Assembly (NCBI GenBank): GCA_019635795.1
Contig: JAHBYV010000012.1
Coordinates: 1 to 52,857, forward strand
DNA: 52,857 bases
Direction of reading: 5' to 3'
Source of the DNA: Rhizobiaceae bacterium
GTDB lineage: Bacteria; Pseudomonadota; Alphaproteobacteria; Rhizobiales; Rhizobiaceae
Notes under the pieces: generated by a model
What the model was told of the DNA's origin: nothing
The model's input: the letters and a program-made list of their open reading frames with translations, nothing else
The model's database searches: none
Translations under genes and position numbers: made by a program
In this document: piece by piece, positions 7,347 through 26,124 of the stretch
Layout: the number at the start of each line of letters is the position of its first letter
Numbering within the stretch: the first letter of the stretch is position 1

Positions 7347-7380
7347 TTGGCAATGCCGACGCTTTGCACTGGCGCACAGC

Positions 7381-7395
7381 TTTGGTAATACCAAA
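7381..7395. promoter_or_regulatory. Putative GntR operator 1 (TTTGGT-AAT-ACCAAA)
   Basis: This is a perfect inverted repeat with 6-bp arms and a 3-nt spacer, core TGGT-N3-ACCA, which is the shape bound by FadR-subfamily GntR regulators. It lies in the 296-nt gap before the epimerase operon that encodes such a regulator (9755-10474), about 250 bp upstream of the first gene. Confidence 0.6.
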
Positions 7396-7549
7396 CTCAA
7401 CCACCAACGCCTTTGTTCGAAGCGGCGCACAAACATCCTTCATACATAGCATAACTATCTGATTATTATTGAATTTGTTATCACCAAAAATATCGTATCC
7501 GAATTTCTTGCCGGATTGCCGGAATTGCGATAGAAAACGCAGAGAGCCA

Positions 7550-7575
7550 AATTGGTCTAACCAGATTTGTCTGGT
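7550..7575. promoter_or_regulatory. Putative GntR operator 2 (composite palindromes)
   Basis: TGGTCTAACCA at 7553-7563 repeats the TGGT-N3-ACCA core. Its right half also pairs with a following arm, giving a second perfect inverted repeat ACCAGA-TTTG-TCTGGT at 7560-7575. It lies about 70-90 bp before the epimerase start at 7643, where a promoter would be expected. Probable site of autoregulation by the GntR protein encoded in this operon. Confidence 0.65.
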
Positions 7576-7642
7576 GATCGTTTGGGAGGAGAAGGCGCCG
7601 CGCGCCGCAAAATAAAGCCATTTTCGAGGAAAGGGACGTTCA

Positions 7643-8530
7643 ATGCATCTTTCGACTCACAACTGGATGCGCGCTGAGCCACTGGACACCACACTGCGCC
7701 GCATCAAAAAGTTCGGGTATGAAAGCATTGAAATTTCGGGCGAGCCAGCACAGTACCGGACCAATGAGACGCGCGCCTTATTGAAAGAGCATGGCATTCG
7801 CTGCTGGGGCGCGGTGACGCTGATGCTCGGCGACCGAAATCTGGCTGCCAAAGACCAAGGCCAGCGCGAACGGTCCGTGCAATATGTGAAAGACGTTCTC
7901 ACCATGATTTCCGAGCTCGACGGGGAGATCATCACGCTCGTTCCCTGCACAGTCGGCAAAGTGGTGCCGGATGGCACGGAAGAAGAAGAATGGAATTGGG
8001 TTGTCGATGCCACACGCGAATGTTTCAGCCACGCCAAGAAGGTTGGCGTGCGCATTGCAATCGAGCCGCTGAACCGCTTTGAAACCTATATGTTCAATCG
8101 CGGTGAGCAGGCGCTTGCTTTGGCAGACGCGGTAAGCCCGGAATGCGGAGTTTGCCTCGACGCCTATCACATCCATATGGAAGAGTTTGACGTCGAAGAG
8201 GCCATCCGCAAGGTTGGGAAGCGGCTTTTCGACTTCCACGTTGCGGAAAATAATCGCTTTGCTGCTGGGCTCGGCACAATCGACTGGAAAAAGATCGTCG
8301 GCATACTGAAGGACATTGGCTATGACGGCGCACTGACCAACGAATTCGTTGCGCCGGTGGACCGCACCCCGGCGAACCGTTACCCGGACATGGTCGAACG
8401 CAATCCGGTCGACATTTCTCCCGAACAGCTCAAATTCATCCAGGATCATGGTTCGAGCTTGCTTACCGAGAAGTTCTATACGGACCAGATGCGCATCACG
8501 GCAGAGACAATACTGCCCCTGATAAAGTGA
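7643..8530 (+). CDS. Sugar phosphate isomerase/epimerase family (TIM barrel)
   Basis: This 295-aa enzyme belongs to the xylose-isomerase-like TIM-barrel superfamily that includes ketose 3-epimerases and inosose dehydratases. The four metal-ligand positions are visible as Glu141 (IEPLNRFE), Asp173 (LDAYHIHME), His199 (FDFHVAENN) and Glu234 (TNEFV), so a divalent-metal-dependent isomerase, epimerase or dehydratase activity on a sugar or sugar acid is likely. It lacks a signal peptide and is cytoplasmic. A purine-rich GAGGAAAGGGA precedes the ATG. It is the first gene of an operon with a dehydratase, the GntR regulator and a hydroxyacid dehydrogenase, downstream of two operator-like palindromes. 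The exact substrate cannot be assigned. Confidence 0.9.
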   Translation: MHLSTHNWMRAEPLDTTLRRIKKFGYESIEISGEPAQYRTNETRALLKEHGIRCWGAVTLMLGDRNLAAKDQGQRERSVQYVKDVLTMISELDGEIITLVPCTVGKVVPDGTEEEEWNWVVDATRECFSHAKKVGVRIAIEPLNRFETYMFNRGEQALALADAVSPECGVCLDAYHIHMEEFDVEEAIRKVGKRLFDFHVAENNRFAAGLGTIDWKKIVGILKDIGYDGALTNEFVAPVDRTPANRYPDMVERNPVDISPEQLKFIQDHGSSLLTEKFYTDQMRITAETILPLIK

Positions 8531-8588
8531 GCATTGAGGCTTCGCTCTTGCAGCGGAGCATACCGACTGAAACTCGGAGAGCGATGGG

Positions 8589-9758
8589 ATGCGCATTGCC
8601 AAAGTTCATGCGTGGTGGGTCCGCATACCCATCGAAACAAGTCGGCAGCACAAGAGCGACTTCGGCCAACTGAAGACCTTCGATTCCGCAATACTTCGCA
8701 TTGAAACTGATAACGGCATTGTTGGTTGGGGCGAGGGGAAAAATGCGGCGGGCAGCGCCGGAACCTATAGCGCACTTGTGCACATGCTCAACCATGAGGT
8801 CGGCCCGAGGCTTATTGGCCACGATGCCCGCGACATCTCTGGCATTTGGGAGATGCTTTATAACGGCGTTCGGCATGAAAAGGCCGCTGCCGAAGGCCAT
8901 GCAATGCCTGAGCTTGCCAGAAGGGGCCACAGTGTCGCGGCTATAAGTGCCGTGGACATTGCCTTATGGGACATCGCGGGCAAATCCCTTGGCGTTCCGG
9001 TCTGGCAAATACTCGGCGGGAAAAAGGCAAACCGGTTGCCCGCCTATGCATCGGGTGGATGGGAGAGCGCGGACAAGATCGGCGAGCAGTTGCAGTCCTA
9101 TGTCGACAAGGGAGGGTTCCGCACCGTCAAGATGCGCGTCGGCGCGATGGACGGTTCGCCGCATATTTCGGCTGAGCGCGTAAAGGCCGCGCGTAAGGCA
9201 CTGGGACCGGCAGTAGACATCGCAGTCGATGCCCACGGGACATATACGGTTGCCGACGCCAAGCGCTTCGTGAACATGGTCGAGGATTGCGATCTGGCAT
9301 GGTTTGAAGAACCGGTTATAGCCGACGATAAAGCCGGTATGGCAGAGGTGCGTGCGGCTGGCCGCGTGCCTGTTTCGGCGGGCGAAAGCGAGGCTACGCG
9401 TTTTGCATTCCGTGATCTTGCGGTGTTGCGTGCCGCGGATATTTTCCAGCCGGACCCCGCATTTTGTGGCGGCATAAGCGAAGCAATGAAAATTGCCGCG
9501 TTGGCAAGCGCCTTCAATCTGAGATTTGCGCCTCATTTATGGGCGGGCGCGCCATGTTTCTTCGCCGGATTGCATTTATGTGCAGCTTCACCCTCAAGTT
9601 TCATTATTGAATATTCGCTTGGAGCGAACCCGATGATACACGATCTGGTGAAAGAATCGGTGGAGGCAAGGGACGGAATGGTTGCAATTCCCAACGTTCC
9701 CGGATTGGGCTTCACCATCGACGAGGAATTTCTGGAAGCGCATATTCAAAGCGGATGA
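8589..9758 (+). CDS. Mandelate racemase/muconate lactonizing enzyme family (acid-sugar dehydratase-like)
   Basis: This 389-aa enolase-superfamily enzyme has an N-terminal capping domain and a C-terminal barrel. Catalytic positions are visible: Lys181-x-Arg183 (TVKMRVG), metal ligands Asp214 (VDAHGTY), Glu240 (WFEEP) and Glu266 (AGESE), and His316 (APHLW). This mandelate-racemase-type set abstracts the proton alpha to a carboxylate, so it probably dehydrates or racemises a sugar acid. It lies 58 nt downstream of the epimerase gene and overlaps the GntR gene by 4 nt (ATGA), indicating translational coupling. The precise acid sugar is not determinable from sequence alone. Confidence 0.9.
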   Translation: MRIAKVHAWWVRIPIETSRQHKSDFGQLKTFDSAILRIETDNGIVGWGEGKNAAGSAGTYSALVHMLNHEVGPRLIGHDARDISGIWEMLYNGVRHEKAAAEGHAMPELARRGHSVAAISAVDIALWDIAGKSLGVPVWQILGGKKANRLPAYASGGWESADKIGEQLQSYVDKGGFRTVKMRVGAMDGSPHISAERVKAARKALGPAVDIAVDAHGTYTVADAKRFVNMVEDCDLAWFEEPVIADDKAGMAEVRAAGRVPVSAGESEATRFAFRDLAVLRAADIFQPDPAFCGGISEAMKIAALASAFNLRFAPHLWAGAPCFFAGLHLCAASPSSFIIEYSLGANPMIHDLVKESVEARDGMVAIPNVPGLGFTIDEEFLEAHIQSG

Positions 9759-10474
9759 CAAAAGAAAAAAACCTTCTGGCCGAATTGGCCGCCTATCTGT
9801 TCTCCAACTCGGACAAGGAGAACGGTCGTACGCCATCCGAAAGAGAGCTCGCAGAACACTTCAATGTCAGCCGCGGCCAAATTCGCGAGGCGCTTGCAAT
9901 TTTGGAGGCCATGCGAATTGTCGAGCGGCGCGCGAAGTCAGGTATTTACCTGACAACACGCGAGGCCAGCGTCGAAGCGCTTGCCCTGTTCGCAAAAGCA
10001 GGCGTGCCGCTGGATCCAATCCAGATCTATGAAACAGTGGAACTCCGCAAAATCCACGAAATCAAGGCAGCCGAACTCGCTTGCAGCCGCGCGACCGAGG
10101 AAAATTTTGAGCGCTTGCGCGAAATACTGCGAGAATCGGAAGAGTGCCTTGCACGAGGAGAGGGTCTGGCCATACAGGACCGGGATTTCCATCTGGAGAT
10201 CGTGCGCGCAACACAGAACAGCGTGTTTCATCGCGTTTGCAGTGTTTATTATGTACTCGGAGAACAACGTCTGCCGATTTACTTCGATGATCCCGAACGG
10301 GGTCGGCGGTCGCATCAGGAACATTTGCAGATTTTCGATGCGCTGCTGCGTCGTGACGGAAACCTGGCTCAAGCGCTGATGAGCGCACATCTACAAGGCG
10401 CAGAAAGTTACTGGAAAGGTCTTATCGCGAGCGGTCGCCCGGATTGGGCCGCACCCCATGTCGATCGGGCATAA
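9755..10474 (+). CDS. GntR family regulator, FadR (FCD) subfamily
   Basis: This 239-aa regulator has an N-terminal winged helix (about residues 25-75, with RTPSERELAEHFNVSRGQIR) and a C-terminal all-helical FCD ligand domain containing the metal-site segment RDFHLEIVRATQN. FadR-type regulators usually bind short TGGT-N-ACCA palindromes and sense the substrate or an intermediate of the pathway. Palindromes of that shape occur before this operon (7381, 7550), before the ABC transporter operon (17297, 17359) and before the M24 hydrolase gene (21761), which makes this protein the natural candidate regulator of all three. Its start overlaps the stop of the preceding dehydratase gene. Confidence 0.9.
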   Translation: MTKEKNLLAELAAYLFSNSDKENGRTPSERELAEHFNVSRGQIREALAILEAMRIVERRAKSGIYLTTREASVEALALFAKAGVPLDPIQIYETVELRKIHEIKAAELACSRATEENFERLREILRESEECLARGEGLAIQDRDFHLEIVRATQNSVFHRVCSVYYVLGEQRLPIYFDDPERGRRSHQEHLQIFDALLRRDGNLAQALMSAHLQGAESYWKGLIASGRPDWAAPHVDRA

Positions 10475-10475
10475 T

Positions 10476-11450
10476 ATGCGGCCAACGATCTACTCCACCC
10501 ACAAGCTTCATCCTCGCGCGGAGGAGATTTTAAGGGGAAAGGGTAATCTGGTTGTTGCATCCTCGCTGAAGGATGATGTTCTGATTGAGGAAGGCCGAAA
10601 GGCCGACGTGATTATCGTGCGCGCGCCGCTTCCGCCTTCTCTCTTCTCCGATGCACCGCGCTTGCGCGCCGCCATTCGGCACGGCGCCGGCATCGATATG
10701 ATCCCTTACGAGGAAGCAACGCGCGCGGGCGTTTTAATAGCGAATGTTCCCGGCTCCAATTCGCAAACAGTCGCCGAGCACGTCATGATGGTTTCCATGA
10801 TGTTGTTGCGCCGCTTTCGCATGGTGGATAGCGATTTGCGCGGCAAGGGATGGCTGACCGCACGCGAACATTCCAATGACGGGCACGATATTTCCGGCAA
10901 GACAATCGGGATCGTCGGGTTCGGGAATATCGGCGCAGCGATTGCCCGGATTGCCAGACACGGCTTCGGCATGAACGTTCTGGCGCACAATCGCAGCCAG
11001 AAAGAAGCTGACGGCGTCGAGTTTCTCGAACTGGAAGCCCTGCTGTCGCGCTCCGACATTACCGTGCTCTGTTGTCCGCTCACTGCCGAAACGCGCGGCC
11101 TGATTGATGCCCGCCGTATCGCTCTTATGAAACCCGGTTCGTTTCTTATCAACGTCTCGCGCGGTCCTGTGGTGGTCGACGATGCGCTCATCGCAGCTCT
11201 ACAGTCAGGACATGTGGGCGGCGCCGCGCTTGACGTTTTTGCCGAGCAGCCATTAGCCCCTACCCACCCCTATTTTGGCTTTGCCAACGTAATCATAACG
11301 CCACATATGGCCGGCATTACTGACGAATCCATGATGCGCATGGGCATTGGTGCCGCGCAGGAAGCTTTGCGCGTACTTGCTGGCGACTTACCTGCAAATC
11401 TTCGCAATCCCGAGGCCATCGAGCTATATCGCAAACGCTACCCCGCGTGA
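10476..11450 (+). CDS. D-2-hydroxyacid dehydrogenase (NAD(P)-dependent)
   Basis: This 324-aa oxidoreductase belongs to the D-isomer-specific 2-hydroxyacid dehydrogenase family. It has the nucleotide-binding motif GIVGFGNIG near residue 150 and the catalytic triad Arg (NVSRGPVV), Glu (DVFAEQPL) and His (ITPHMAGIT). It would oxidise or reduce a 2-hydroxy/2-keto acid produced in the pathway. The ATG at 10476 directly follows the GntR stop; an ATG at 10458 in the same frame would overlap the regulator by 17 nt, and neither has a strong ribosome binding site. The last 13 nt overlap tail-to-tail with the ATPase gene on the other strand. Confidence 0.88.
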   Translation: MRPTIYSTHKLHPRAEEILRGKGNLVVASSLKDDVLIEEGRKADVIIVRAPLPPSLFSDAPRLRAAIRHGAGIDMIPYEEATRAGVLIANVPGSNSQTVAEHVMMVSMMLLRRFRMVDSDLRGKGWLTAREHSNDGHDISGKTIGIVGFGNIGAAIARIARHGFGMNVLAHNRSQKEADGVEFLELEALLSRSDITVLCCPLTAETRGLIDARRIALMKPGSFLINVSRGPVVVDDALIAALQSGHVGGAALDVFAEQPLAPTHPYFGFANVIITPHMAGITDESMMRMGIGAAQEALRVLAGDLPANLRNPEAIELYRKRYPA

Positions 11451-12517
11451 CGCAGGCTGATCCCGCTGTGTTTGTCGAACAGCGCGACTTTTTTGGGGTT
11501 CCAGGCAAATCGAACATCCTGCTCGACCTCAACTTGCGTTGACGCGGGAACCGTAGCGCGCAGCGTATTCTCGCCCACCCGCAAGGTGACGATTTTCTCC
11601 ACACCGTGGTTCTCGACATCATGCACGGTGGCGGGGACCGGCGCACCGGCCTCAATTACGACGTCCTCGGGACGAATGCCGAACGTTAAAGGCCGATCAT
11701 TTGCACCGGATTTGACCGCGCCTTCATAAGGCAGTTCGAATGTCTTTGGTGCAATTACCGCCCTGCCTCCCGCCAGGGAGCCGTCGATCAGGTTCATGGG
11801 CGGCGACCCGACAAAGCTCGCGACGAATGTGTCGCGCGGATTGTCGTAAATTTCCTTGGGCGTACCCGTCTGCACCAGATGCCCATGATTGAGGACACCG
11901 ACCCGATCCCCCATGGACATGGCTTCGATCTGGTCATGGGTGACAAACAGGAACGTTGCACCCAGTCGCCGCTGCAAATCCTTTAACTCAGTGCGTAGCG
12001 CTTCTCGCAACTTGGCGTCCAGCGCAGACAGTGGCTCGTCCATGAGAAAGACGCGCGGCTTCCGCACGATTGCGCGACCGATCGAAACGCGCTGCATCTC
12101 GCCCCCGGACAGCCTGTCGGTTTTGCGTTCCAACAAGTGCTCGATACGCAACGTCCTGGCGGCCCGGGCAACGCGTTCCTTTATCTCGTCATCCGGCACA
12201 CGACGTATTTTTGACTTCAACGGAAATTCCAGATTTTCCCGGACGGTGTAACGCGGATAGAGCGAATATTGTTGAAGAACGAGAGCAACGTCGCGCTCCG
12301 CCGCACCCCAATCGCCGACATCCACCCCGTCTATGAATATCTGGCCGGAAGTTGGCTTCTCCAAACCGGCAACGAGACGCAAAGTCGTGGTTTTACCTGC
12401 ACCAGTTTCCCCAAGGAGCACGAAGAACTGGCCATCCTCGATTTCGAGGTTCAGATTTTTCAGCGCCGTGTGGCGGCCAAAAACCTTGGTAATGTTCTTG
12501 AGTTGGATATGGGCCAT
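11438..12517 (-). CDS. CUT1-type ABC transporter ATPase (second)
   Basis: This 359-aa MalK/UgpC-like nucleotide-binding protein energises sugar import at the inner membrane. It has Walker A GETGAGKTT (Thr in place of the usual Ser/Gly), signature LSGGEMQR, Walker B VFLMDEPLSALD, the switch histidine in VTHDQIEA and a C-terminal OB-fold (TOBE) region containing FGIRPEDVV. It is the last gene of the transporter operon, 21 nt after a second non-identical ATPase gene, suggesting an ATPase heterodimer as in rhizobial glycerol transporters. Its 3' end overlaps the convergent dehydrogenase gene by 13 nt. Confidence 0.9.
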   Translation of the reverse strand: MAHIQLKNITKVFGRHTALKNLNLEIEDGQFFVLLGETGAGKTTTLRLVAGLEKPTSGQIFIDGVDVGDWGAAERDVALVLQQYSLYPRYTVRENLEFPLKSKIRRVPDDEIKERVARAARTLRIEHLLERKTDRLSGGEMQRVSIGRAIVRKPRVFLMDEPLSALDAKLREALRTELKDLQRRLGATFLFVTHDQIEAMSMGDRVGVLNHGHLVQTGTPKEIYDNPRDTFVASFVGSPPMNLIDGSLAGGRAVIAPKTFELPYEGAVKSGANDRPLTFGIRPEDVVIEAGAPVPATVHDVENHGVEKIVTLRVGENTLRATVPASTQVEVEQDVRFAWNPKKVALFDKHSGISLRHAG

Positions 12518-12538
12518 ATCAATCCATCCGCACCATGA

Positions 12539-13645
12539 TCACAGACGAATGCCAAGGCTATCGCCGCTCGAAGTATCGAAGAAGTGTGTCTGGCTCGGGT
12601 CTATGCGGGCGTAGACCCGTGCGCCAGCGCGTTCGATATAACCGCTGCGGGTTCGCGCGCGCAAAATCTGATCGCCGACCCTGAGATCAACAATGTCGTA
12701 GGAGCCCAGCGGCTCAATGAGATGAGCCTCGACCGGAAAATAGCCATTCTTTTCATCCCGCGAGACAAGAACACCTTCGGGACGCACGCCGAGGGCAAGT
12801 TCGTTTGTTCTGACGTCCGCTGTATCCAGTTGTGCAAGCAGCGTTGCCGGGAACTCGAACCGGGACGCTCCGCCGACACCAACATGAATGCTTCCCCCGG
12901 ATGATTCTACTTCGACCGGGGCAACGTTCATCACCGGACTGCCAACAAACTGCGCCACGAAAAGGTTGGCCGGGCGCGAGTAGACTTCGGTGGGACTTCC
13001 AACCTGCTGAAGCCGCCCTTCATGCATAATGACGATCCGGTCAGCCAGGCTCATTGCCTCAATCTGATCGTGCGTCACGTAAATCGTCGTAGATCCCTGC
13101 TTGAGATGCAGACGTTTGATTTCAGCGCGCATTTCTTCACGCAGCTTGGCATCCAGTGCGCCGATCGGTTCGTCCATCAGCATCGCCTTGGGCCGGCGCA
13201 CCAGTGCTCGCCCAATGGCCACACGCTGCATGTCACCACCGGAAAGCGCTGACGGTCGCTTGTCGAGAAGATCGGTTATGCGTAGAACCTGTGCGATTTC
13301 CCTCACGCGCCTATCGGTGTCTGTCTTGCTCATGCGCGTCGCCCGCAGAGGAAACGCTATGTTCTCGAACACGGTCATGTGCGGATAGAGAGAGAAGGAC
13401 TGAAACACCATCGCGATGTCGCGGTCCGAGCATTTGAGATCCTGAACGGGCTTTCCGTCGATCAAAATGTCGCCGGTATCTATCGTCTCAAGCCCGGCAA
13501 TTGCCCGCAAGGTTGTCGTCTTCCCGCAGCCTGATTGCCCAAGCAGAACGATAAACTCGCCATCCTCGATCTTCAGGTTCATATCCTTGATAACCTGAAG
13601 CGAACCGAAATACTTCTGAACGTCCCGAAGCTCGATACTGGTCAT
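12539..13645 (-). CDS. CUT1-type ABC transporter ATPase (first)
   Basis: This 368-aa MalK/UgpC-like ATPase has Walker A GQSGCGKTT, signature LSGGDMQR, Walker B AMLMDEPIGALD, switch histidine VTHDQIEA, and a C-terminal regulatory/TOBE region (LALGVRPEGV). It differs clearly from its neighbour at 11438, so both probably pair in one transporter. It overlaps the small membrane protein gene upstream by 4 nt (ATGA), indicating translational coupling. Substrate is unknown but should be a carbohydrate or polyol given the binding protein and pathway genes. Confidence 0.9.
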   Translation of the reverse strand: MTSIELRDVQKYFGSLQVIKDMNLKIEDGEFIVLLGQSGCGKTTTLRAIAGLETIDTGDILIDGKPVQDLKCSDRDIAMVFQSFSLYPHMTVFENIAFPLRATRMSKTDTDRRVREIAQVLRITDLLDKRPSALSGGDMQRVAIGRALVRRPKAMLMDEPIGALDAKLREEMRAEIKRLHLKQGSTTIYVTHDQIEAMSLADRIVIMHEGRLQQVGSPTEVYSRPANLFVAQFVGSPVMNVAPVEVESSGGSIHVGVGGASRFEFPATLLAQLDTADVRTNELALGVRPEGVLVSRDEKNGYFPVEAHLIEPLGSYDIVDLRVGDQILRARTRSGYIERAGARVYARIDPSQTHFFDTSSGDSLGIRL

Positions 13646-13866
13646 TGCACGGTCTCCCCGGAATGTCCCGAAGCTTCGTCATCATCAGTCACGATCGCCG
13701 CCTTCTCGCCGCCAAACCAGTTGGTGAGCATGAAGGTTACAAGCCCGACGATTATGATCGTCAGCCCATAGCGATGAAGAAACAGGTTCCAGGGTTGGCA
13801 AAGCGCAATGATGCCCAACACCATCACGATTTCCGCAATTTGCTGAAGCTTATCGGCCCGTATCAT
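13642..13866 (-). CDS. Small membrane protein within the sugar ABC operon
   Basis: This 74-aa protein has two close hydrophobic segments (about residues 11-28 and 33-50, IVMVLGIIALC and YGLTIIIVGLVTFML), then an acidic tail with EKAAIVTDDDEASGH. I do not recognise a named family. Its 4-nt overlaps with both the upstream permease gene and the downstream ATPase gene show that it is a real member of the operon. By position it could be an accessory subunit of the permease complex; small membrane proteins also occur in rhizobial glycerol ABC operons with two ATPases. Confidence 0.75.
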   Translation of the reverse strand: MIRADKLQQIAEIVMVLGIIALCQPWNLFLHRYGLTIIIVGLVTFMLTNWFGGEKAAIVTDDDEASGHSGETVQ

Positions 13867-14822
13867 TTGCGAATGGCTCCGAATGTTACGCCGCGCAGCA
13901 GGTGATTACGCAGCAGGAACGTGAAGATCGCCACCGGCAAGAGGAAAAGCAGCGTACCTGCCGCGATGACCGTCCAGTCCGGCAGTCCCGAGCCAACCTG
14001 ACTTGGGATGAATGGTGGTGCAGTCTGCGCACGGCGATTGGTCATGATCAGCGCGAAAGCGTATTCGTTCCAGGCGGTAATGAAGCAGAACACGGCGGTA
14101 GCCGCTATGCCCGTTGCGGCCTCTGGCAGCACCACCTTGAAGAAGGCCTGCATCCGCGTATAGCCATCCACCAGAGCAGCCTCCTCATACTCTTTGGGTA
14201 TTTCATCCATGAACCCCTTCATCAGCCACACTGAGAATGAGAGATTGAATGCCGTATAGAGAATGATCAGCCCGATATGCGTGTCGTTGAGGCCGAACGT
14301 GCGGTACATCAGGAACATCGGGATAGCGACAACGACCGGCGGCAACATGCGCGTCGATAAAATGAAGAACAGAAGATCCCCTTCCCCCTTAACCTTGAAC
14401 CTTGAGAATCCGTAGGCCGTCAGCGTCCCCATTCCGACCGCCAGAATGGTCGAAATGGTCGCGACAATCAGGGAGTTCATGAACCGGCTCGGATAGCCCG
14501 ACCACTGAACATTTCCCTTGCCATCGCGCACGACCTTTTCACCACCGTCGAACACCATTCGTTCCCACCAAGGTGCTGCGGCATACTCTTCAGGTGTCGG
14601 CGGCGAGCGAAGCTGCGAGCGCTTGGTGAAAAGTTTGACAAAGGGCGAAACCTCAGGCGTGAACACCACGGTCGGCGGTATGGTCGTAGAAAGATTCCTC
14701 GGTTTGAATGCCGTTGAGGCAATCCAGTAAATCGGTGCGAGGAAGATCAGCGTAACGATCAGCACGCCAGCAATTGCGAGCTTGTTGAGTGTGCGTTCGG
14801 TGGAGGTGGTGACGGCGGCCAT
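13863..14822 (-). CDS. Carbohydrate ABC transporter permease (MalG-like)
   Basis: This 319-aa inner-membrane permease has about six transmembrane segments and the ATPase-contact (EAA) loop EEAALVDGYTRMQAFFKVVLP-like region near residue 230. Between the first and second membrane segments it carries a long periplasmic stretch of about 80 residues (roughly 45-125) that is larger than in typical MalG-type permeases. It starts 1 nt from the stop of the partner permease and overlaps the small membrane protein gene, so the whole set is translationally linked. Confidence 0.9.
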   Translation of the reverse strand: MAAVTTSTERTLNKLAIAGVLIVTLIFLAPIYWIASTAFKPRNLSTTIPPTVVFTPEVSPFVKLFTKRSQLRSPPTPEEYAAAPWWERMVFDGGEKVVRDGKGNVQWSGYPSRFMNSLIVATISTILAVGMGTLTAYGFSRFKVKGEGDLLFFILSTRMLPPVVVAIPMFLMYRTFGLNDTHIGLIILYTAFNLSFSVWLMKGFMDEIPKEYEEAALVDGYTRMQAFFKVVLPEAATGIAATAVFCFITAWNEYAFALIMTNRRAQTAPPFIPSQVGSGLPDWTVIAAGTLLFLLPVAIFTFLLRNHLLRGVTFGAIRK

Positions 14823-14823
14823 A

Positions 14824-15729
14824 TCAGCGTTCCTTCACCTTGTTCAGGTATTTGACATAGATGTTCGTAATGGCCAGCACCATGATGAGCACGATGTAGG
14901 CAAAGGCGCAGGACAACCCCGTTTGCCATTCCTGAAACGCCATCTTGTATAGCCGTATAGAGATGAGTTCCGTCGTCGGCTGGCTGGTCAGAACGTATGC
15001 AAGATCGAATGTCTTGAAGGCTTCCATCGTGCGGAAAATGATTGCGATCATGAGGATCGGCGCAACCAGAGGAAGCGTGATCCGAAAGAAAGTGTAGAAC
15101 GGGCCAGCGCGATCAATAGCGGCCGCTTCATAAAGATGCTTTGGCACAGCAGATAGACCGGCCAGCGACAGCAACATGACGAACGGTGACCACATCCATA
15201 TGTCTGTGATTGCCACCGCATAGAGCGCCATGGACGGGTTCGACAACCACTCGAATGTTCCCAGTCCCAAAGCGTAATTGATGATGCCGAAGGACGGATC
15301 ATAAAGCAGCTTCCAGAAGAGACCGACGACGGCCATCGAAAGCATCATTGGCAAAAGCAGCAGCGTCGTAAGCAGTCCTTTGAAGGGGATGCTCCGATTG
15401 AGCAGCATCGCCGTGCCGAAGCCAACGAGCACCTGTCCAACGACCGACACGATCACATACTTTGCAGTAATGGCGAAGTTGTTCCAGATGAATGGATCGT
15501 TCAGCAGCGTCCGATAATTCTGAAGCCCGACGAAATTCGTTTGCCCGGTGCCAGACGCCCGAAAATCGGTGAAGGAATACCCCAGCGAATAAAGCAGCGG
15601 GAAGATATTGAATATAATCAGGAAAAGGATCGTCGGGATGATGAAAAGGTTCCGGATCGCAAGGTCGCTCATCCCGCGTGAGGCGGCACGCGACTTGGGA
15701 TCCAGCGTAGTCAGAACTGCGGTAGCCAA
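14824..15729 (-). CDS. Sugar ABC transporter permease (MalF-like)
   Basis: This approximately 301-aa inner-membrane permease has six predicted membrane segments (first FIIPTILFLIIFNIFPLLYS) and an EAA loop region with YEAAAIDRAGPFYTFFRITLP-like sequence. The open frame extends to 15786, but that would place the start inside the stem-loop terminator at 15785-15818. A GGGGAGG at about 15736-15742 favours a TTG start at 15729 (7-nt spacing); a GTG at 15735 is also possible but too close to the GGAGG. The gene follows the binding-protein gene in one operon. Confidence 0.85.
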   Translation of the reverse strand: MATAVLTTLDPKSRAASRGMSDLAIRNLFIIPTILFLIIFNIFPLLYSLGYSFTDFRASGTGQTNFVGLQNYRTLLNDPFIWNNFAITAKYVIVSVVGQVLVGFGTAMLLNRSIPFKGLLTTLLLLPMMLSMAVVGLFWKLLYDPSFGIINYALGLGTFEWLSNPSMALYAVAITDIWMWSPFVMLLSLAGLSAVPKHLYEAAAIDRAGPFYTFFRITLPLVAPILMIAIIFRTMEAFKTFDLAYVLTSQPTTELISIRLYKMAFQEWQTGLSCAFAYIVLIMVLAITNIYVKYLNKVKER

Positions 15730-15784
15730 CGACACGCCTCCCCGAGGGCTCGCGCCCGGCAGCAACAGGCCGCGCGCATAAACC

Positions 15785-15818
15785 AAAAAAAGGGAGGGGG
15801 CGGTTGTCCGTCCCCTCC
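15785..15818 (-). terminator. Intercistronic intrinsic terminator/attenuator after the binding-protein gene
   Basis: On the minus strand an 11-bp stem with one mismatch (GGAGGGGACGG / CCGCCCCCTCC, loop ACAA) is followed at once by a seven-T run (positions 15791-15785). It starts 14 nt after the stop of the binding-protein gene and lies before the first permease. It would end most transcripts after the binding protein and let a fraction continue, giving excess binding protein over membrane components. Confidence 0.8.
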
Positions 15819-15832
15819 AGCATCACTTCGGG

Positions 15833-17146
15833 TCAGTTCTGAACCCGGTTGTATTTTTTGAAAGTCGCGTTCCAGTCGGCAGCCAGATTGTCCAGCGCTT
15901 CCTTGGCAGTTCCCTGATCGCCTGTGATGTAGGGATAGATGCGCTGGTTCATCTGGATCAGGAGTTCTGCGTATTCAGGTGTCGCCCAGAAATCCTTGAC
16001 CTTGAACATGGTGTCGTAGAACGCCTTGTTATAAGGCGTTGCATTCTGGAATTCGGCGGACTCCAGCACTGACTTGTTGCAGGTGTAGCCGCCAAGATCG
16101 GCCCACTTTTTCTGCGTCTCGTCTTTCACGAACCATTCAAGGAACTTGAATGCCTCTTCCTGGTTCTCGGAATAGGAGACGATGGAAATGCCCTGCCCGC
16201 CAAGCGCCGCATATTGATCGCCATCCGGACCGGCTGGATTTGCAAAGAAGCCCGTCACTTTTGCATTCGGGTTCGAGGCTTCGTTCACCAGCGCGGGGAA
16301 GAACGCAAAGTAGTTCATGCTCATTGCGGCGAGATTTTCCGTAATGGCCTGGTTATTTTCGACAAAGAAGGTCTTGGCCCAGCCGGGCGGCGTAAACTTG
16401 TAAAGCTCCTTATAAACCTCAAGAGCCTTCACATTCTTTTCGGAGTTGATGATCCCGTCGACCTTGTAGGTGGCATAGTCACCAAGCTCGCCACCATAAG
16501 AGAAGATGGCATTTTCAACGCCCATGACCAGTCCGTCATAGGAATTGTCCGTGTAGATTGCGATGCCATACCGCTTTTCATCCGGACGATGGAAAAACTC
16601 TGCAATGTCCCGCAGCTCTTTCCACGTTTTCGGCGGAGCGAGATCATAGCCATACTTGGCCTTGAACGCCTCCATTTCCTTGGGGTCTTCGAACCAATCC
16701 TTGCGGTAGGACCAGCCTACTGCATCGCCTTCCGCCGGAACAGACCAGTATTTGCCTGAATTCGAAGGATACTCGGCGTAATATTTCACGGTGGCCGGAG
16801 CCATCGTCTCGTTCAGCTTGTGCTTGTTGAAGAACTCGGTCAGGTCAACATAGTGGCCTGCCTCGGATGCAGCACCAATCCACTGCGAGTCGCCAACGAC
16901 CATATCGTAAGCGCTGCCCTTGGCGTTGAATTCGGTAAATGCCTTGGTCTGGAAATCGGCCCACGGTGTCGTTTCGACCGTGACCTTCACGCCGGTTTCC
17001 TTTTCGTATTCGTTCGCAAGTTCCTGAAGATAATTGGCTGGGTCCCACTCGGCCCAGAAGATTGTCAATTCTTGTGCGAACACAGATGTAGAGCAAGCCA
17101 GCGATAGTCCGATACCAGCCAAAAGGCCGGTTAGTCTCTTGCGCAT
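15833..17146 (-). CDS. Extracellular solute-binding protein, sugar ABC transporter
   Basis: This 437-aa periplasmic binding protein of the MalE-like family 1 begins with a signal peptide (MRKRLTGLLAGIGLSLACST, cleavage likely after VFAQ region around residue 24). The mature protein starts near ELTIFWAEWDPANYLQELAN, with a typical lobe-forming arrangement. The ATG at 17146 is chosen over 17203 because GGGAGG lies 8 nt upstream and it gives a clean signal peptide. It is the first gene of the transporter operon; two TGGT-N3-ACCA palindromes lie upstream and a terminator-like hairpin directly downstream. Ligand unknown, probably a sugar or polyol. Confidence 0.9.
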   Translation of the reverse strand: MRKRLTGLLAGIGLSLACSTSVFAQELTIFWAEWDPANYLQELANEYEKETGVKVTVETTPWADFQTKAFTEFNAKGSAYDMVVGDSQWIGAASEAGHYVDLTEFFNKHKLNETMAPATVKYYAEYPSNSGKYWSVPAEGDAVGWSYRKDWFEDPKEMEAFKAKYGYDLAPPKTWKELRDIAEFFHRPDEKRYGIAIYTDNSYDGLVMGVENAIFSYGGELGDYATYKVDGIINSEKNVKALEVYKELYKFTPPGWAKTFFVENNQAITENLAAMSMNYFAFFPALVNEASNPNAKVTGFFANPAGPDGDQYAALGGQGISIVSYSENQEEAFKFLEWFVKDETQKKWADLGGYTCNKSVLESAEFQNATPYNKAFYDTMFKVKDFWATPEYAELLIQMNQRIYPYITGDQGTAKEALDNLAADWNATFKKYNRVQN

Positions 17147-17296
17147 GATGGTTCCTCCCTTTTGCGCGCGAAGAATGCCATTTTCCGGCAGGAAACCCCG
17201 CACGTCCTATAGCAATTACCAGAAACGCTACTTTATGGCCCTTTGGCCGTCTCATTCGTCTGGTAGGCCCAGCCGAACACCTTCCTCCTCCTTAAC

Positions 17297-17307
17297 TGGT
17301 AGTACCA
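17297..17307. promoter_or_regulatory. Putative GntR operator 3 (TGGTAGTACCA)
   Basis: Perfect 4-bp-arm palindrome with 3-nt spacer, about 150 bp upstream of the binding-protein start at 17146. It shares the TGGT-N3-ACCA core with the sites at 7381, 7553, 17359 and 21761. Confidence 0.55.
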
Positions 17308-17358
17308 AAATTGCTTTCACGTCAAGTTATTTCACGGATTTCACGTTTACTTGTCTTA

Positions 17359-17375
17359 ATCTGGTCTAACCAGAT
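17359..17375. promoter_or_regulatory. Putative GntR operator 4 (ATCTGGT-CTA-ACCAGAT)
   Basis: Perfect inverted repeat with 7-bp arms and 3-nt spacer, located 4 nt past the 3' end of the TetR gene and about 210 bp upstream of the binding-protein gene. It is nearly identical to the site at 21761 and contains the same CTA spacer as the site at 7553. Probably part of the transporter promoter region. Confidence 0.65.
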
Positions 17376-17378
17376 AAG

Positions 17379-18020
17379 CTATTCTTGAACGAGTGATTCA
17401 GCTTCGGCGGCCCGGATCAACGCAGACGCCGCCCAACGGCTCACCGCGAGCGCCTCCTGCGCCTCCAGACCCCAAATATCCTTCAAGACAACGAGTACCT
17501 CAACCCCAAATACAAGCGATAAAGCCTGCGCGAGGCGATCAGCCTTGCGCTTGGGCAGGCGCTTGTTCAGCGGCGCGAGCGCAGAACGCAGCAGCTCAAC
17601 CCGGTGCCCCCGCGTGAATTGCGGTTCTTCGCCAAGTGTGCCTGCCTGACGCATTGCCCATTGTTCGAGCGAGAGGCGCAACGCCGCCTTGAATGTTGCT
17701 TCGAACCGGTCAATGCGTGGAATGGAGCTTTCCAGAAGATCTGCCACCCGGCGATCGGCATTCGTTGAGCGGGATTTCCAGTTGAGGATCGGCCCCAACG
17801 CTTCATCGACGACGGCCTGAACCATCGCCGCCTGACTTGGAAAATAACGATAGGCGGTTGCGCGAGAAACACCGGCTGCCTCCGCCACCTCGCTCACCGA
17901 GGGAGTCCGGCCTTCCTGCATGAGCCGCATGGCCGTTTGGAGCATCAGGCGCCCGGTCCGCGCCCGCGGGCCTCGCTCTGAATTTATCAGCACTTCACTT
18001 GACGCGCGTGAGACTTCCAT
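17379..18020 (-). CDS. TetR/AcrR family regulator
   Basis: This 213-aa regulator has an N-terminal TetR helix-turn-helix (about residues 25-70, with [24 protein letters not shown]) and a helical C-terminal ligand domain. The start at 18020 follows from the family N-terminus; the frame runs on to 18218 but that part would overlap the divergent Tm-1-like gene. It is divergent from the gene at 18104 over 83 nt containing a near-perfect ACGCGCGT-centred palindrome, so autoregulation and control of that operon are likely. Its ligand is unknown. Confidence 0.88.
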
Positions 18021-18027
18021 ATCAATA

Positions 18028-18043
18028 TGATACGCGCGTCTCA
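18028..18043. promoter_or_regulatory. Putative TetR operator (TGATACGCGCGTCTCA)
   Basis: A 16-bp palindrome with only one mismatched pair, centred on ACGCGCGT, sits 8 bp before the TetR start codon and about 60 bp before the divergent Tm-1-like gene. A second copy of the 8-bp core ACGCGCGT occurs at 18002-18009, inside the first codons of the TetR gene and exactly 30 bp away, about three helical turns. Confidence 0.65.
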
Positions 18044-18103
18044 ATATTTTGCAATCCGGTTTATACGCTGGGTGCCATTGCGAGACGCGGGAGGAGAGCG
18101 CAA

Positions 18104-19300
18104 ATGAAGCGCGTTTACGTGGTTGGCACGGCCGACACGAAGGGTGAGGAGCTTGCCTGGCTGGCGAGCAGGATCGCAGCCACGGGCTTGACGACAACAA
18201 TAGTCGATGTTGGCACAAGAAAGCCGAGCATAAATGTCGACATCACCGCGGAACTTGTTGCGGCACACCACCCCGAGGGGGCTGATGCGGTGCTCGACAC
18301 AGAAGATCGCGGCGCTGCCGTCACGGCCATGGGTGAGGCATTCGCGACCTTCATCACAACGCGAGACGACATCGCCGGCATAATAGGTATTGGCGGGGGC
18401 GGCGGAACATCGATCATCACATCCGGAATGAGAGCACTGCCGCTGGGCCTGCCCAAACTCATGGTCTCAACGCTCGCCTCCGGTGACGTGGCGCCTTACG
18501 TTGACGTGTCTGACATCATAATGATGCCTTCGGTAACAGATTTTGCCGGGCGGAACCGCCTGAGCCGAACAGTGCTGCACAATGCTGCTTCCGCAATTTC
18601 CGGCATGGCGCGCAATCCGGCCAAAATTGAAGGCGGCAAGCCGGCCATAGGCCTCACCATGTTTGGCGTTACAACGCCATGCGTGACGCAAATCAGTTCT
18701 CATCTGCGGAGCCGGTTCGACTGCATGGTTTTTCATGCCACCGGAACGGGCGGACGATCGATGGAAAAGCTGGCGGATAGCGGTTTGCTAGCTGGCATCA
18801 TCGATATCACCACAACGGAAGTTTGCGATTTGATGCTTGGCGGCGTTTTGCCAGCGACCCAGGACAGGTTCGGTGCAATAGCTCGAACGGGCTTGCCCTA
18901 TGTCGGGTCCGTTGGGGCGTTGGATATGGTGAATTTCTGGGCTCCATCGACTGTTCCCGCAAATTACCGGGGGCGTCTATTCTACGAGCACAACCCGAAC
19001 GTGACGCTGATGCGCACGAATGCTGAAGAATGCGCGATGATCGGAGAATGGATTGCAGAGCGGCTCAATCGTTGCGAAGGCGAAATCCGGTTTCTCATCC
19101 CCGAAAAAGGCGTTTCCGCAATCGACATTGAGGGCGGTCCATTCTTCGACCCTCAAGCCGACCAAGCACTTTTTGATGCCATAGACGATACGCTAGAACA
19201 TACCGACCGCAGACGCTTGATCCGCCTGCCCCTCCATATCAACGACCCGGATTTCGCTGAAGCTGTCGTTGCTGAATTCAACGAAATTATCAGACGCTGA
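18104..19300 (+). CDS. Tm-1-like ATP-binding domain protein (UPF0261)
   Basis: This 398-aa protein belongs to the UPF0261 family, homologous to the N-terminal domain of the tomato Tm-1 antiviral protein. It begins with a nucleotide-binding-like [14 protein letters not shown], has a glycine-rich [12 protein letters not shown] loop near residue 90 and the conserved [13 protein letters not shown] near residue 210. The cellular substrate in bacteria is not established. GGGAGGAG 7 nt upstream fixes the ATG at 18104 rather than the longer frame from 17999. It is followed after 9 nt by the gene for the partner TIM-barrel domain and then a cupin gene, and is probably regulated by the divergent TetR protein. 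Confidence 0.9.
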
Positions 19301-19309
19301 GGTCTTTTG

Positions 19310-20140
19310 ATGCCCGCTATTCCACGCAAGGAAATCCTTGAAAAGTTTCAGGACATGGTAACCCGGCGCATACCAATCGTGGGCGGCGGCGCGGGAACGG
19401 GATTGTCTGCAAAGGGAGAGGAAGCAGGCGGCATCGACCTCATTATTATCTACAACTCGGGAAGATACCGCATGGCGGGGCGCGGCTCCGCTGCTGGCCT
19501 GTTGGCCTACGGAAATGCCAATGAGATCGTCAAGGAAATGGCGGTCGAGGTGCTGCCCGTTGTCAAGAAGACACCGGTGCTCGCTGGCGTGAACGGCACG
19601 GACCCCTTCATTCTTATGCCTCGTTTTCTGGCAGAGCTTAAAGAGATGGGCTTTTCAGGGGTGCAGAACTTTCCCACCATCGGCCTGTTCGACGGCGTGA
19701 TGCGTCAAAGCTTCGAGGAAACCGGCATGGGATTTGGCCTTGAGGTGGACATGATTGCCCACGCTCACGCTATTGATCTGCTGACCACGCCTTACGTGTT
19801 CAACCCGGATGAATCGGCAGCGATGACCAGAGCGGGTGCCGATATAATTGTCGCACATATGGGCGTGACGACCGGTGGCACCATTGGCGCAACAAGCTCC
19901 AAAACGCTTCAGTCGTGTATCGGAGAGATTGACGCCATAGCCGAAGCCGCACGCAAGGTTCGCAAGGATGTAATTGTGCTTTGCCACGGGGGGCCGATCG
20001 CCATGCCGGAAGATGCAGATTTCATTTTGAAGAACTGCAAAGGTTGCAACGGCTTTTACGGCGCGAGTTCCATGGAACGTCTGCCTGTCGAAACGGCGCT
20101 CGCCGAACAAACACGGAAGTTCAAATCCATCAAGTTCTAG
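19310..20140 (+). CDS. PEP-hydrolase-like TIM-barrel protein (Tm-1 C-terminal domain homologue)
   Basis: This 276-aa protein matches the family named after phosphoenolpyruvate hydrolase, a TIM-barrel related to the C-terminal part of plant Tm-1. Landmarks are [20 protein letters not shown] near the start, the barrel strand [12 protein letters not shown] and [14 protein letters not shown] near residue 225. The enzymatic reaction in this family is not firmly known. It starts at an ATG 9 nt after the UPF0261 stop (a preceding in-frame TTG is less likely), so the two proteins are probably made together and may act as one unit, being fused in plants and fungi. Confidence 0.88.
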
Positions 20141-20149
20141 GAGGTCCGT

Positions 20150-20566
20150 ATGCCATCGCCCGACAAGATGTTTGTTTACCCCAAAGATGTCAGCGCATTT
20201 GGATTTGATTGGGGGCGACTGTCCTTGACTGTCGGCCCGGAGGTGAACGGTGCGCGCCAGTTTTCCGCTGGCGTTGTTGATTTGCCGCAAGGTCAGGGCC
20301 ACTCACGCCACAACCACCCCGGTGCAGAAGAAATAATCTTTGTGATTTCAGGCAATGGACAGCAGATGGTCGAAGATGATGACGGCAATCCGGTAACGCG
20401 CGATGTCGGGCCGGGCTGTACTATATTCGTCCCAGAAAGCCGATTTCATTCCACGTTGAATACCGGCGCAACGCCAATGCAGCTTTTTGTCGTTTATTCG
20501 CCTGTTGGGCCGGAAGCTACGCTGAAGGAATTGCCCGACTTCAGGCTGATACCCGCGGGACAATGA
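20150..20566 (+). CDS. Cupin domain protein
   Basis: This 138-aa single-domain cupin carries the first metal motif H-x3-HxH-like segment GHSRHNHPGAEEIIFVISG and the second motif with His in ESRFHSTLNTG, so it probably binds a metal ion in a beta-barrel. It could be an isomerase, dioxygenase or small-molecule binding protein. AGGAGG precedes the ATG at 20150, 9 nt after the preceding stop, so it is the third gene of the Tm-1-like operon. It faces the M24 hydrolase gene tail-to-tail with 6 nt between the stops. Confidence 0.85.
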   Translation: MPSPDKMFVYPKDVSAFGFDWGRLSLTVGPEVNGARQFSAGVVDLPQGQGHSRHNHPGAEEIIFVISGNGQQMVEDDDGNPVTRDVGPGCTIFVPESRFHSTLNTGATPMQLFVVYSPVGPEATLKELPDFRLIPAGQ

Positions 20567-20572
20567 CGGGCG

Positions 20573-21733
20573 TTACTCCGCTACGTTCCATCCGCGTCCG
20601 CGATCACCATACATTTCATGGCCTGTGTCAGTTATAGCGATCGTATCTTCCAGTTTGATAAAGCCACGAGATGGGTGAAGCATGGTTGTTTCCACGGAAA
20701 TCACCATGCCAGCCTCCAGAGCGTGTGCAGCGTCCACACCCTCATAGGTGACGGGGTGATTGGTCATAAGAAACGGCACTTCGTGGCTGATAACGCCCAT
20801 GCCATGTGCAAAAAAATCCGTATAGCCTGCGACCGGCGACGCCTTGAGCACATGTTCGGCCCCGGCAATCATATCCATGCCCAATGTACCGGGCTTGCAG
20901 TTGCGGAACGCCGCTTGTTGAACAGCATCGACTTCAGCCAGTAGATCCTGCAACTCGGCATCAGGCTCGCCGCGAACACCCATGCGGCACAAGTCGCCTA
21001 TATAACCCTGATAATTTCCACCGGAATCCAGCGACAACACATCCCCATGCTCCCAGCGCTGGTCAGACACAGCCCGGTTGTGGCTGGCACCAGCAGCGAT
21101 GAGGCAATATTCAAAATGCAATCCGCGATTGGTTTCTTCCCGTCGCAGCGCGTCCACGATTTCGCCTTTCGTCGCCCCTCCCGGCGTTCTGCTGAAAACG
21201 GACAGCATCGAGTCCGTGATCAGTTCGGATGCCCTGCGCAAGGCGGCCAGTTCGCGAGCGGATTTTATAGAACGCAGCCGTTCCAGCATTCCAGTCGCAT
21301 CGACGAAAACCGCATCCGGCAATCCGTCCACAAGCACCTGATAGGCATCCAAAGGCATAAAGGACGGTTCGATTCCAATCCTTGCTGTAGCCTTGCCAGT
21401 TTTGCGAACGTGCTCGACGGCAAGGCGCGCTGCATCAGTCGACCCCCAAGCTCCAGCCTGAAACGTGGGCGTCCAGAATGGGTGAACCGCGTGCTCTGCC
21501 CCTTCCATGCGATTGCCTATATAGCCAGCATGTTCCGGCTTGCCTCGCTCATAGGCCAGAAATGGGAGGTATCGGCTATGGCCAATCGCATCCATCGCCG
21601 CGAAGAAAATGAACCGATACCCTCCAAGCAGATACTGCACATTGTGCTTGGAAGTCGCGAGCAGCAAATCAATACCAGCCTCGCCCATCAACCGGTCGGC
21701 GCGCTCGCTGTCAAAAGGAACGGATGTTGTCAC
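20573..21733 (-). CDS. M24 family metallohydrolase (Xaa-Pro peptidase/creatinase fold)
   Basis: This 386-aa cytoplasmic enzyme has a creatinase N-terminal domain and an M24 pita-bread catalytic domain. All five metal ligands are present: Asp236 and Asp247 (LSLDSGGNYQGYIGDL), His310 (FFAHGMGV), Glu348 (SVETT) and Glu362 (KLEDTI), so a metal-dependent peptidase or amide hydrolase is expected, not a metal-free creatinase. It starts at GTG with AAGGAG 9 nt upstream. The palindrome ATCTGGT-CCT-ACCAGAT lies 28 bp before the start, linking it to the GntR-controlled sugar genes. It may release the sugar-like substrate from an amide or peptide conjugate, which is inference. Confidence 0.88.
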   Translation of the reverse strand: MTTSVPFDSERADRLMGEAGIDLLLATSKHNVQYLLGGYRFIFFAAMDAIGHSRYLPFLAYERGKPEHAGYIGNRMEGAEHAVHPFWTPTFQAGAWGSTDAARLAVEHVRKTGKATARIGIEPSFMPLDAYQVLVDGLPDAVFVDATGMLERLRSIKSARELAALRRASELITDSMLSVFSRTPGGATKGEIVDALRREETNRGLHFEYCLIAAGASHNRAVSDQRWEHGDVLSLDSGGNYQGYIGDLCRMGVRGEPDAELQDLLAEVDAVQQAAFRNCKPGTLGMDMIAGAEHVLKASPVAGYTDFFAHGMGVISHEVPFLMTNHPVTYEGVDAAHALEAGMVISVETTMLHPSRGFIKLEDTIAITDTGHEMYGDRGRGWNVAE

Positions 21734-21760
21734 AGACCGATACTCCTTTTAATGCACCAA

Positions 21761-21777
21761 ATCTGGTCCTACCAGAT
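21761..21777. promoter_or_regulatory. Putative GntR operator 5 (ATCTGGT-CCT-ACCAGAT)
   Basis: Perfect inverted repeat with 7-bp arms and 3-nt spacer directly upstream of the M24 gene (28 bp before its GTG). Arms are identical to the site at 17359. Its position near the start codon suits repression. Confidence 0.65.
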
Positions 21778-23126: not shown

Positions 23127-23161
23127 GGCCGTGGTTCCTCTGCGCAATATAATCCACCCGC

Positions 23162-23181
23162 GCCGCGCGAAGGAGCGCGGC
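23162..23181 (-). other. Intercistronic stem-loop between gguB and gguC
   Basis: A perfect 7-bp stem (GCCGCGC / GCGCGGC, 6-nt loop) lies in the gap between the permease and gguC genes. No T-run follows on the minus strand, so it is more likely an RNA processing or stability element than a terminator. Confidence 0.45.
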
Positions 23182-23252
23182 TGCCGTAAGTCTTCGGTTT
23201 CTGTTGTTGCCACCGCCAGCTCCTCAGCTGCGCGGCGTATCGCTTGGTCTGC

Positions 23253-26053: not shown

Positions 26054-26059
26054 GCCGAT

Positions 26060-26088
26060 CCTCCCGCTTCGGAGGTTAATGCCCCTCC
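26060..26088 (-). promoter_or_regulatory. Possible Shine-Dalgarno-sequestering structure before gguA
   Basis: On the minus strand the order is GGAGG (26088-26084), 8 nt, CCTCC (26075-26071), 6 nt, GGAGG (26064-26060), 6 nt, ATG. The central CCTCC can pair either with the true Shine-Dalgarno or with the upstream GGAGG, so two mutually exclusive 5-bp GC-rich hairpins are possible. Whether they form in vivo is unknown. Confidence 0.4.
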
Positions 26089-26124
26089 AGCGTCAGCCTT
26101 TCGCTTTCCAAGTCAACGTAACGT

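Follow-up and report, generated by a model that had tools for sequence, protein, structure and literature searches.

A probable FadR-type regulon with paired operators at near-fixed distance in rhizobia and their relatives

Regulators of the FadR subfamily of GntR proteins recognise sites of the consensus TKGT/ACMA, most often with 3 nt between GT and AC, and in some divergons the sites are doubled at a constant distance (PMC4494728). The FCD-type GntR repressor Atu1419 of Agrobacterium fabrum is a tetramer with two palindromes 190 bp apart, and its loops were seen by electron microscopy (PMC7797058). Here we analyse a stretch of 52,857 nucleotides from a Rhizobiaceae bacterium (assembly GCA_019635795.1, contig JAHBYV010000012.1), called the window below, which is the start of contig 4 in a 3.26-Mb genome. 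It encodes a FadR-subfamily GntR protein (9755-10474) that is probably the repressor of a regulon marked by the palindrome WWYTGGT-N3-ACCARWW, as judged from the distribution of the sites across genomes.

The locus resembles the FadR-subfamily regulons of DgoR, ExuR, LldR, GlcC and PdhR in the winged helix-turn-helix (wHTH) plus FCD architecture, the TKGT-N3-ACMA site, the regulator encoded inside a controlled operon and the double sites (PMC4494728). It differs from them in gene content, i.e. three TIM barrels (TIM1, TIM2, TIM3), a protein of the mandelate racemase/muconate lactonizing family (MLE), a 2-hydroxyacid dehydrogenase (DH), a Gfo-Idh dehydrogenase (Gfo2), XylAB and an M24 hydrolase, in operator pairs that are mostly ~170-180 bp apart, and in that the window's GntR protein reaches no NCBIfam equivalog cut-off. 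An FCD-type GntR protein, here a putative repressor, with two spaced palindromes is what it has in common with Atu1419; Atu1419's own palindrome, ATGTATACAT, and its hydroxycinnamic acid degradation regulon are both unlike what we find (PMC7797058). No paper describing this regulon was found by title and start of abstract; RegPrecise and the supplementary site list of PMC4494728 lay outside that coverage, and an earlier in-silico prediction is possible. We regard the regulon as new, and of a known FadR-type kind.

A first, sequence-only reading of this DNA had named five TGGT-N3-ACCA sites in front of three transcription units, one of them with a FadR-type GntR gene, and had noted identical 7-bp arms at 17359 and 21761. 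All of this is borne out (Table 1), the cores being at 7383, 7553, 17297, 17362 and 21764 (core positions refer to the first base of TGGT, 17-mer positions start 3 bp earlier). The site which that reading placed at 7381 does have the core, but its outer arms, CTTTGGT/ACCAAAC, depart from the extended form, and it is weaker than had been implied. The window contains six cores where 0.38 are expected, a number reached in none of 100 shuffles; the sixth, at 52251, has poor flanks and was left uncounted. The enrichment of the full 17-mer with at most 3 mismatches is modest (5 observed, 1.47 expected, 3 of 100 shuffles reaching 5). In the whole genome, to which the genome-wide motif counts refer, ATCTGGT-N3-ACCAGAT with at most 3 mismatches gave 147 matches against 60 for the control, and five of the 41 bare cores fall within 14,397 bp (binomial P ~1e-6, post hoc). 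The extended form WWYTGGTNNNACCARWW (WWYTGGT-N3-ACCARWW) has six exact matches, at 7550, 17294, 17359, 21761, C4:108657 and C2:45816; given 41 cores and the window's base composition, ~0.4 matches are predicted. These six precede five units: the TIM1 operon, the ABC operon (two sites), the M24 gene, xylB-xylA (C4:108657) and the TIM-barrel/Gfo-Idh pair TIM2-Gfo2 (C2:45816). The last two are additional to the sequence-only reading.

The site and the regulator go together across the family. We scanned 297 family genomes for the GntR ortholog and the perfect 17-mer; 58 have a close ortholog (at least 74% identity) and 10 have a homolog of ~60%, and the remaining 229 gave no match at E 1e-40. The perfect 17-mer was found in 37, 0 and 4 genomes of these classes, respectively (Fisher test, 58 close-ortholog against 229 no-match genomes, 4e-27). 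One of the four exceptions (G089; other genomes and loci are given by our working numbers, G and L) contains a match, 81% identical, to GntR residues 3-82, and in the other three (G115, G119, G078) the sites are inside unrelated open reading frames (ORFs). The reversed-control 17-mer was matched in G030, among the matches listed. The protein itself has the architecture of the FadR subfamily (GntR domain 43 bits, cut-off 27; FCD domain 86.7 bits, cut-off 24.3), and the sites before the presumably controlled genes have the TKGT-N3-ACMA form. Its FCD residues D142, H146, H187/H190 and H212 are invariant in 29 of 29 loci; we take this set of one Asp and three His to be the metal ligands.

The sites are also conserved before orthologous genes. 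The relatives of the M24 locus were sampled as the best 80 of 153, nearly all of them Mesorhizobium and hence non-independent; the best named match to the window's M24 protein is from Mesorhizobium denitrificans LA-28 (84%). A TGGT-N3-ACCA site lies at most 450 bp upstream of the M24 gene in 72 of the 80, and among the eight loci without it are the two from Ensifer, where M24 is co-directional with the cupin gene and comes after it. A solute-binding protein (SBP) of the ATP-binding cassette (ABC) importer, at least 60% identical, is present in 67 of these loci, and every one has exactly two sites upstream of it. Elsewhere in the 80 loci there are only 3 further cores in 1.56 Mb. In four other loci (L016, L021, L065, L072) the operator pair is kept with a different ABC system behind it (homologs 26-43% identical), as if transporter cargo had been exchanged under the same control.

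In the family sample, where counts for M24, TIM2, xylB and spacing refer to the 30 best-scoring loci of each search and not to all matching genomes, the M24 gene keeps its site in 24 of 30 loci, the window included. M24 is matched in 68 of the 70 genomes searched and, at E 1e-90, in 67 of the 68 that carry the GntR gene, close or distant, at E 1e-40. Where it is displaced, i.e. separated from the GntR gene by over 40 kb or placed on a different contig (which can be an assembly effect), the site is still kept in 8 of 9 cases. With the FadR-type consensus, the conservation before orthologous genes and the co-occurrence with GntR, the proposed regulon is well supported by comparative sequence data.

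The regulon probably extends beyond the three units. Of the 58 genomes that have a close GntR ortholog, 55 contain TIM2. It has a site in 28 of the 30 loci and is divergent from TIM1 in 26; in the three genomes of this genus (the window's, G118 and G015) and in G147 it is located away from TIM1, and all four of these copies have kept the site. A TIM3-like ORF starts near a site in 9 of the 16 motif loci inspected; in the window's genome TIM3 was not found at E 1e-40. The xylB gene has a site in 4 of 30 GntR-bearing loci, including the three genomes of this genus, and in none of 30 GntR-lacking loci, one of which has merely 4 bp of upstream DNA; G213, outside the 30 xylB loci, has it too. We link xylBA to the pathway because one genome (G004, L237, 2827-12159) has a compact divergent cluster, Gfo2-TIM2-xylA-xylB / TIM1-MLE-GntR-DH, with two sites between its arms. 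In comparison with the D-xylose isomerase pathway, the likeness consists of xylA and xylB at their cut-offs and of the operator before xylB in this genus, and the difference is that the site is missing in the other 26 GntR-bearing xylB loci. As a separate observation, G277 (L239) has a TIM2-Gfo2 pair (~70% identical) near xylBA, gguA/gguB-like ABC genes and, by eye, a LacI-type ORF; this neighbourhood suggests a xylose-related substrate for the pair.

It is conspicuous that the paired operators stand at a near-fixed distance from each other, a new observation that goes beyond the sequence-only reading. In the 26 TIM2/TIM1 divergons (10 genera) the spacing is 180 bp in 22 (8 genera) and 177, 178, 179 or 181 bp in the others; 86-312 bp separate the left operator from TIM2, the whole intergenic region is ~350-600 bp long, and ungapped comparison between genera gives a spacer identity of 41%, as against 25% after shuffling. 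At the 67 ABC promoters the spacing is 176 bp in 61 and 175 (two), 178, 168, 166 and 65 bp in the rest. In this genus the outer operator is 170 bp from the main one (7383/7553 in the window, likewise in G118 and G015), even though TIM2 is elsewhere; this is 10 bp under 180, close to one helical turn. The near-fixed spacing points to cooperative or looping repression.

Promoter-like elements were derived from alignments of the relatives' stretches and not from a promoter scan. CTTGAC occurs in 63 of 63 distinct ABC stretches with the 176-bp spacing. From this hexamer to the operator core there are 13 bp at the ABC promoter, also in the window, and 14 bp at the TIM2 promoter, so that the operator would cover the presumed -10 region. 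At TIM1 the operator is just downstream of a promoter-like element, CTTGCg...TAGA, in the 22 relatives with 180-bp spacing. Another palindrome in one ABC spacer, AGACAG-N3-CTGTCT, was dropped, as it is present in 1 of 63 sequences.

The binding, oligomeric state, repression, looping and ligand class of the GntR protein are what we infer from these patterns. The protein would bind WWYTGGT-N3-ACCARWW as a repressor and would control its own operon, TIM1-MLE-GntR-DH, the ABC sugar importer and the M24 hydrolase and, in the window's genome, also xylB-xylA and the relocated TIM2-Gfo2 pair. Since the presumed promoter is overlapped or immediately followed by an operator, repression may be steric, i.e. 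by promoter occlusion. Each of the two main promoters has a second operator whose distance hardly varies (166-181 bp in most of the lineages covered), and two dimers or one tetramer might accordingly bridge both operators in a loop. A carboxylate, namely a sugar-acid or keto-acid intermediate, would then bind to the FCD metal site and the DNA would be released. We propose this combination of occlusion, bridging and carboxylate release because of the FCD metal site, the double sites of FadR-type regulons and the looping of Atu1419.

Several results weigh against this interpretation. The bare core TGGT-N3-ACCA is not enriched genome-wide (41 sites, 58 for the reversed-pattern control), and we rejected its enrichment as evidence; the extended form with one mismatch is rarer than its reversed control (16 against 26 matches), so only the exact form is informative. 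The perfect 17-mer is missing in 21 of the 58 close-ortholog genomes and in all ten that have a ~60% homolog; the single locus of the latter kind that was examined (G013) has looser sites at the same places, before TIM3/TIM1 and SBP, and its spacing of 156 bp does not agree with a simple fixed-spacing model. The ABC pair is 65 bp apart in the window and in M. denitrificans, about half a turn off the 176-bp register, and helical phasing did not reach significance for six hand-picked lineage values (Rayleigh p ~0.18, with a turn of 10.5 bp). The TIM3/TIM1 region of S. meliloti has one exact site, not two. A sigma-70 consensus scan, in which terminators were also sought, called no promoter at the window's three operator places. 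The xylB site appears to be recent and is restricted to few lineages. Finally, in the loci read from S. meliloti (two records) and R. leguminosarum (one), the M24 gene has no site of its own.

The palindrome could instead be the operator of the neighbouring TetR regulator, which is matched in all 67 SBP-holding loci and whose stop codon in the window lies a few bases before the distal ABC operator. The G013 locus (L244), however, keeps its sites with no TetR match in the 19 kb read, and on this evidence we disfavour TetR as the owner; in addition, no site separates the TetR gene from the UPF0261 gene in the window, the motif is of FadR type, and TIM2, TIM3 and xylB sites are far from the locus in several genomes, which were not searched for other TetR genes. 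We consider this alternative highly improbable. It also seems improbable, if slightly less so, that the sites belong to another FadR-type paralog of these genomes. Weak matches do show that the genomes contain further GntR-family genes, and the GT-N3-AC form is common to several FadR-type regulators (PMC4494728). Over the 297 genomes, however, the perfect site goes with this very ortholog, and in the 30 best-scoring loci gntR follows MLE within the site-preceded operon.

A much stronger contender, to which we give somewhat less than an even chance, concerns the spacing, which might be kept without any looping, either by elements packed between the operators (two promoters, or a site of another regulator) or by slow turnover. 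There are promoter-like blocks beside each operator and further conserved blocks in the Mesorhizobium ABC spacer, the spacer identity exceeds the shuffled value, and the lineage spacings (65, 156, 166-168, 170, 175-178 and 177-181 bp) have no single phase. What speaks for the loop is that the 180-bp spacer keeps its exact length in 8 genera with poor sequence conservation over most of that length, and that all three genomes of this genus have the outer operator, 10 bp short of 180, with TIM2-Gfo2 elsewhere and, in the window, with the gene to its left pointing toward it. As to the extent of the pathway, we doubt, but take seriously, that it consists of TIM1-MLE-GntR-DH, TIM2-Gfo2 and the ABC operon only, with M24 and xylBA as incidental recruits. 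The few lineages with an xylB site and the siteless M24 genes just mentioned would be explained in this way; the nearly constant presence of M24 in genomes with the GntR gene, the sites kept by displaced M24 genes and the lineage with xylBA inside the cluster would not.

For M24 the earlier claim of regulon membership is supported in the window's lineage; as the gene is siteless in the S. meliloti and R. leguminosarum loci read, it seems to accompany the locus widely and to answer to this regulator only in some lineages. On S. meliloti pSymA and R. leguminosarum pRle248e the same operons are found, with sites before TIM1/TIM3 and two before SBP. They differ in that M24 is the last gene of the adjacent, TetR-flanked UPF0261-PEP_hydrolase-cupin (Tm-1-like) operon, and TIM2-Gfo2 is not in the stretches read. 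The S. meliloti locus tags SMa1344 and SMa1353, which turned up in two papers, might be genes of this cluster. SMa1353, a 'D-tagatose 3-epimerase', has the value 4.55 in an acid-stress protein table (PMC4941405) and may be TIM1 or TIM3.

The enzymes give some indication of the chemistry. TIM1 resembles ketose 3-epimerases. MLE has the residues of acid-sugar dehydratases of the MR subgroup of the enolase superfamily (KxK/R, three metal ligands and a His-Asp dyad): K181, R183, D214, E240, E266, D289 and H316 are invariant in 29 of 29 loci, the catalytic and metal roles being our assumption, and no equivalog cut-off is reached. In DH, Gln replaces the usual catalytic Glu of the family (DVFxxQP, 27 of 28 loci), a Gln-His pair like that of formate dehydrogenases. 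The M24 protein has the Creatinase_N and Peptidase_M24 domains of its family, and its six presumed metal or catalytic residues are invariant in 109 of 109 loci; five of them, D236, D247, H310, E348 and E362, we take to be the metal ligands. It remains below the NCBIfam equivalog cut-offs for PepQ (Xaa-Pro dipeptidase, 69.6 of 630 bits), DoeA (ectoine hydrolase, 38.3 of 613) and DddP (39.4 of 600). XylA and XylB reach theirs (TIGR02630, 699 bits, cut-off 533; TIGR01312, 580 bits, cut-off 380). Curated models give Gfo2 a distant likeness to inositol, levoglucosan and xylose dehydrogenases, and its closest solved relative, 3v5n, is named just 'Oxidoreductase'.

The linear route of epimerase, dehydratase and dehydrogenase steps that had been put forward is incomplete, because the regulon is larger: xylB-xylA and TIM2-Gfo2 belong to it, as does a third TIM barrel in relatives. 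As a guess of low confidence, the substrate could be a conjugate carrying a pentose or ketose, from which a ketose and a sugar acid would both arise. Our fullest picture is tentative and rather unlikely to hold in every part: an undescribed FadR-type repressor of an undescribed plant-sugar pathway in rhizobia and relatives would clamp two operators in a loop of ~17 turns; operators would outlast genes that have moved, and moved genes (M24, TIM2-Gfo2) would keep theirs; and a ketose/xylose branch (TIM barrels, XylAB, the Gfo-Idh dehydrogenase) and a sugar-acid branch (dehydratase, 2-hydroxyacid dehydrogenase) would be joined by a metallohydrolase opening an amide-type sugar conjugate.

Table 1. 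Features of the locus in the window. Operators are predicted from the motif and its conservation.
Feature	Position	Strand	Basis or remark
Outer (auxiliary) operator, TGGTAATACCA core at 7383	7380..7396	.	Operator at same 170-bp distance in two other genomes of the genus
Degenerate site, one mismatch to WWYTGGTN3ACCARWW	7473..7489	.	Motif match alone
Main operator (predicted) of TIM1-MLE-GntR-DH operon	7550..7566	.	Exact extended form
TIM1, ketose-3-epimerase-like TIM barrel (AP_endonuc_2)	7643..8530	+	Profile matches
MLE, acid-sugar dehydratase type (mandelate racemase/muconate lactonizing family)	8589..9758	+	Profile matches, invariant residues
GntR protein, FadR subfamily (wHTH + FCD), predicted regulator	9755..10474	+	Pfam matches
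DH, D-2-hydroxyacid dehydrogenase family	10458..11450	+	Profile matches
ABC transporter ATPase 2	11438..12517	-	ORF list; annotated ortholog
ABC transporter ATPase 1	12539..13645	-	ORF list; annotated ortholog
ABC permease, MalG-like	13863..14822	-	ORF list; annotated ortholog
ABC permease, MalF-like; real start possibly internal	14824..15786	-	ORF list; annotated ortholog
ABC solute-binding protein (SBP), start set at ATG 17146	15833..17146	-	Profile matches
Proximal operator (predicted) of ABC operon, over presumed -10 region	17294..17310	.	Exact extended form
CTTGAC, -35-like element of ABC operon	17321..17326	-	Consensus of relatives
Distal operator (predicted) of ABC operon, 65 bp from proximal	17359..17375	.	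Exact extended form
TetR-family regulator, neighbour, rival candidate regulator	17379..18020	-	Profile match
UPF0261, PEP_hydrolase-like and cupin genes (Tm-1-like pair + cupin)	18104..20566	+	Conserved neighbours
M24 hydrolase (creatinase/prolidase fold)	20573..21733	-	Pfam matches, invariant residues
Operator (predicted) of M24 gene; TATAAT hexamer overlaps edge, - strand, by eye	21761..21777	.	Exact extended form

Two groups of neighbouring genes may be mentioned. The Tm-1-like pair (UPF0261, PEP_hydrolase), the cupin gene and the TetR gene accompany the locus wherever it was read in Mesorhizobium, Sinorhizobium and Rhizobium, and no TGGT-N3-ACCA site precedes the UPF0261-PEP_hydrolase-cupin genes in the window. 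Upstream of the M24 gene and on the same strand are ORFs (22140-27341) which, from their products, we take to be chvE-gguABC-like, i.e. presumably genes of sugar sensing and uptake.

With the proposed regulon, a gene set that is present in many Mesorhizobium genomes and on Sinorhizobium and Rhizobium plasmids acquires a regulator and a site that can be tested. The regulon links enzymes that were so far unplaced, namely the M24 hydrolase, three TIM barrels and the MLE dehydratase, to one signal, and would therefore narrow the search for the substrate. Atu1419, one tetrameric case, is presented as the first looping GntR repressor (PMC7797058); an operator distance that is kept amid changing DNA may serve as a natural test of whether GntR repressors commonly loop DNA.

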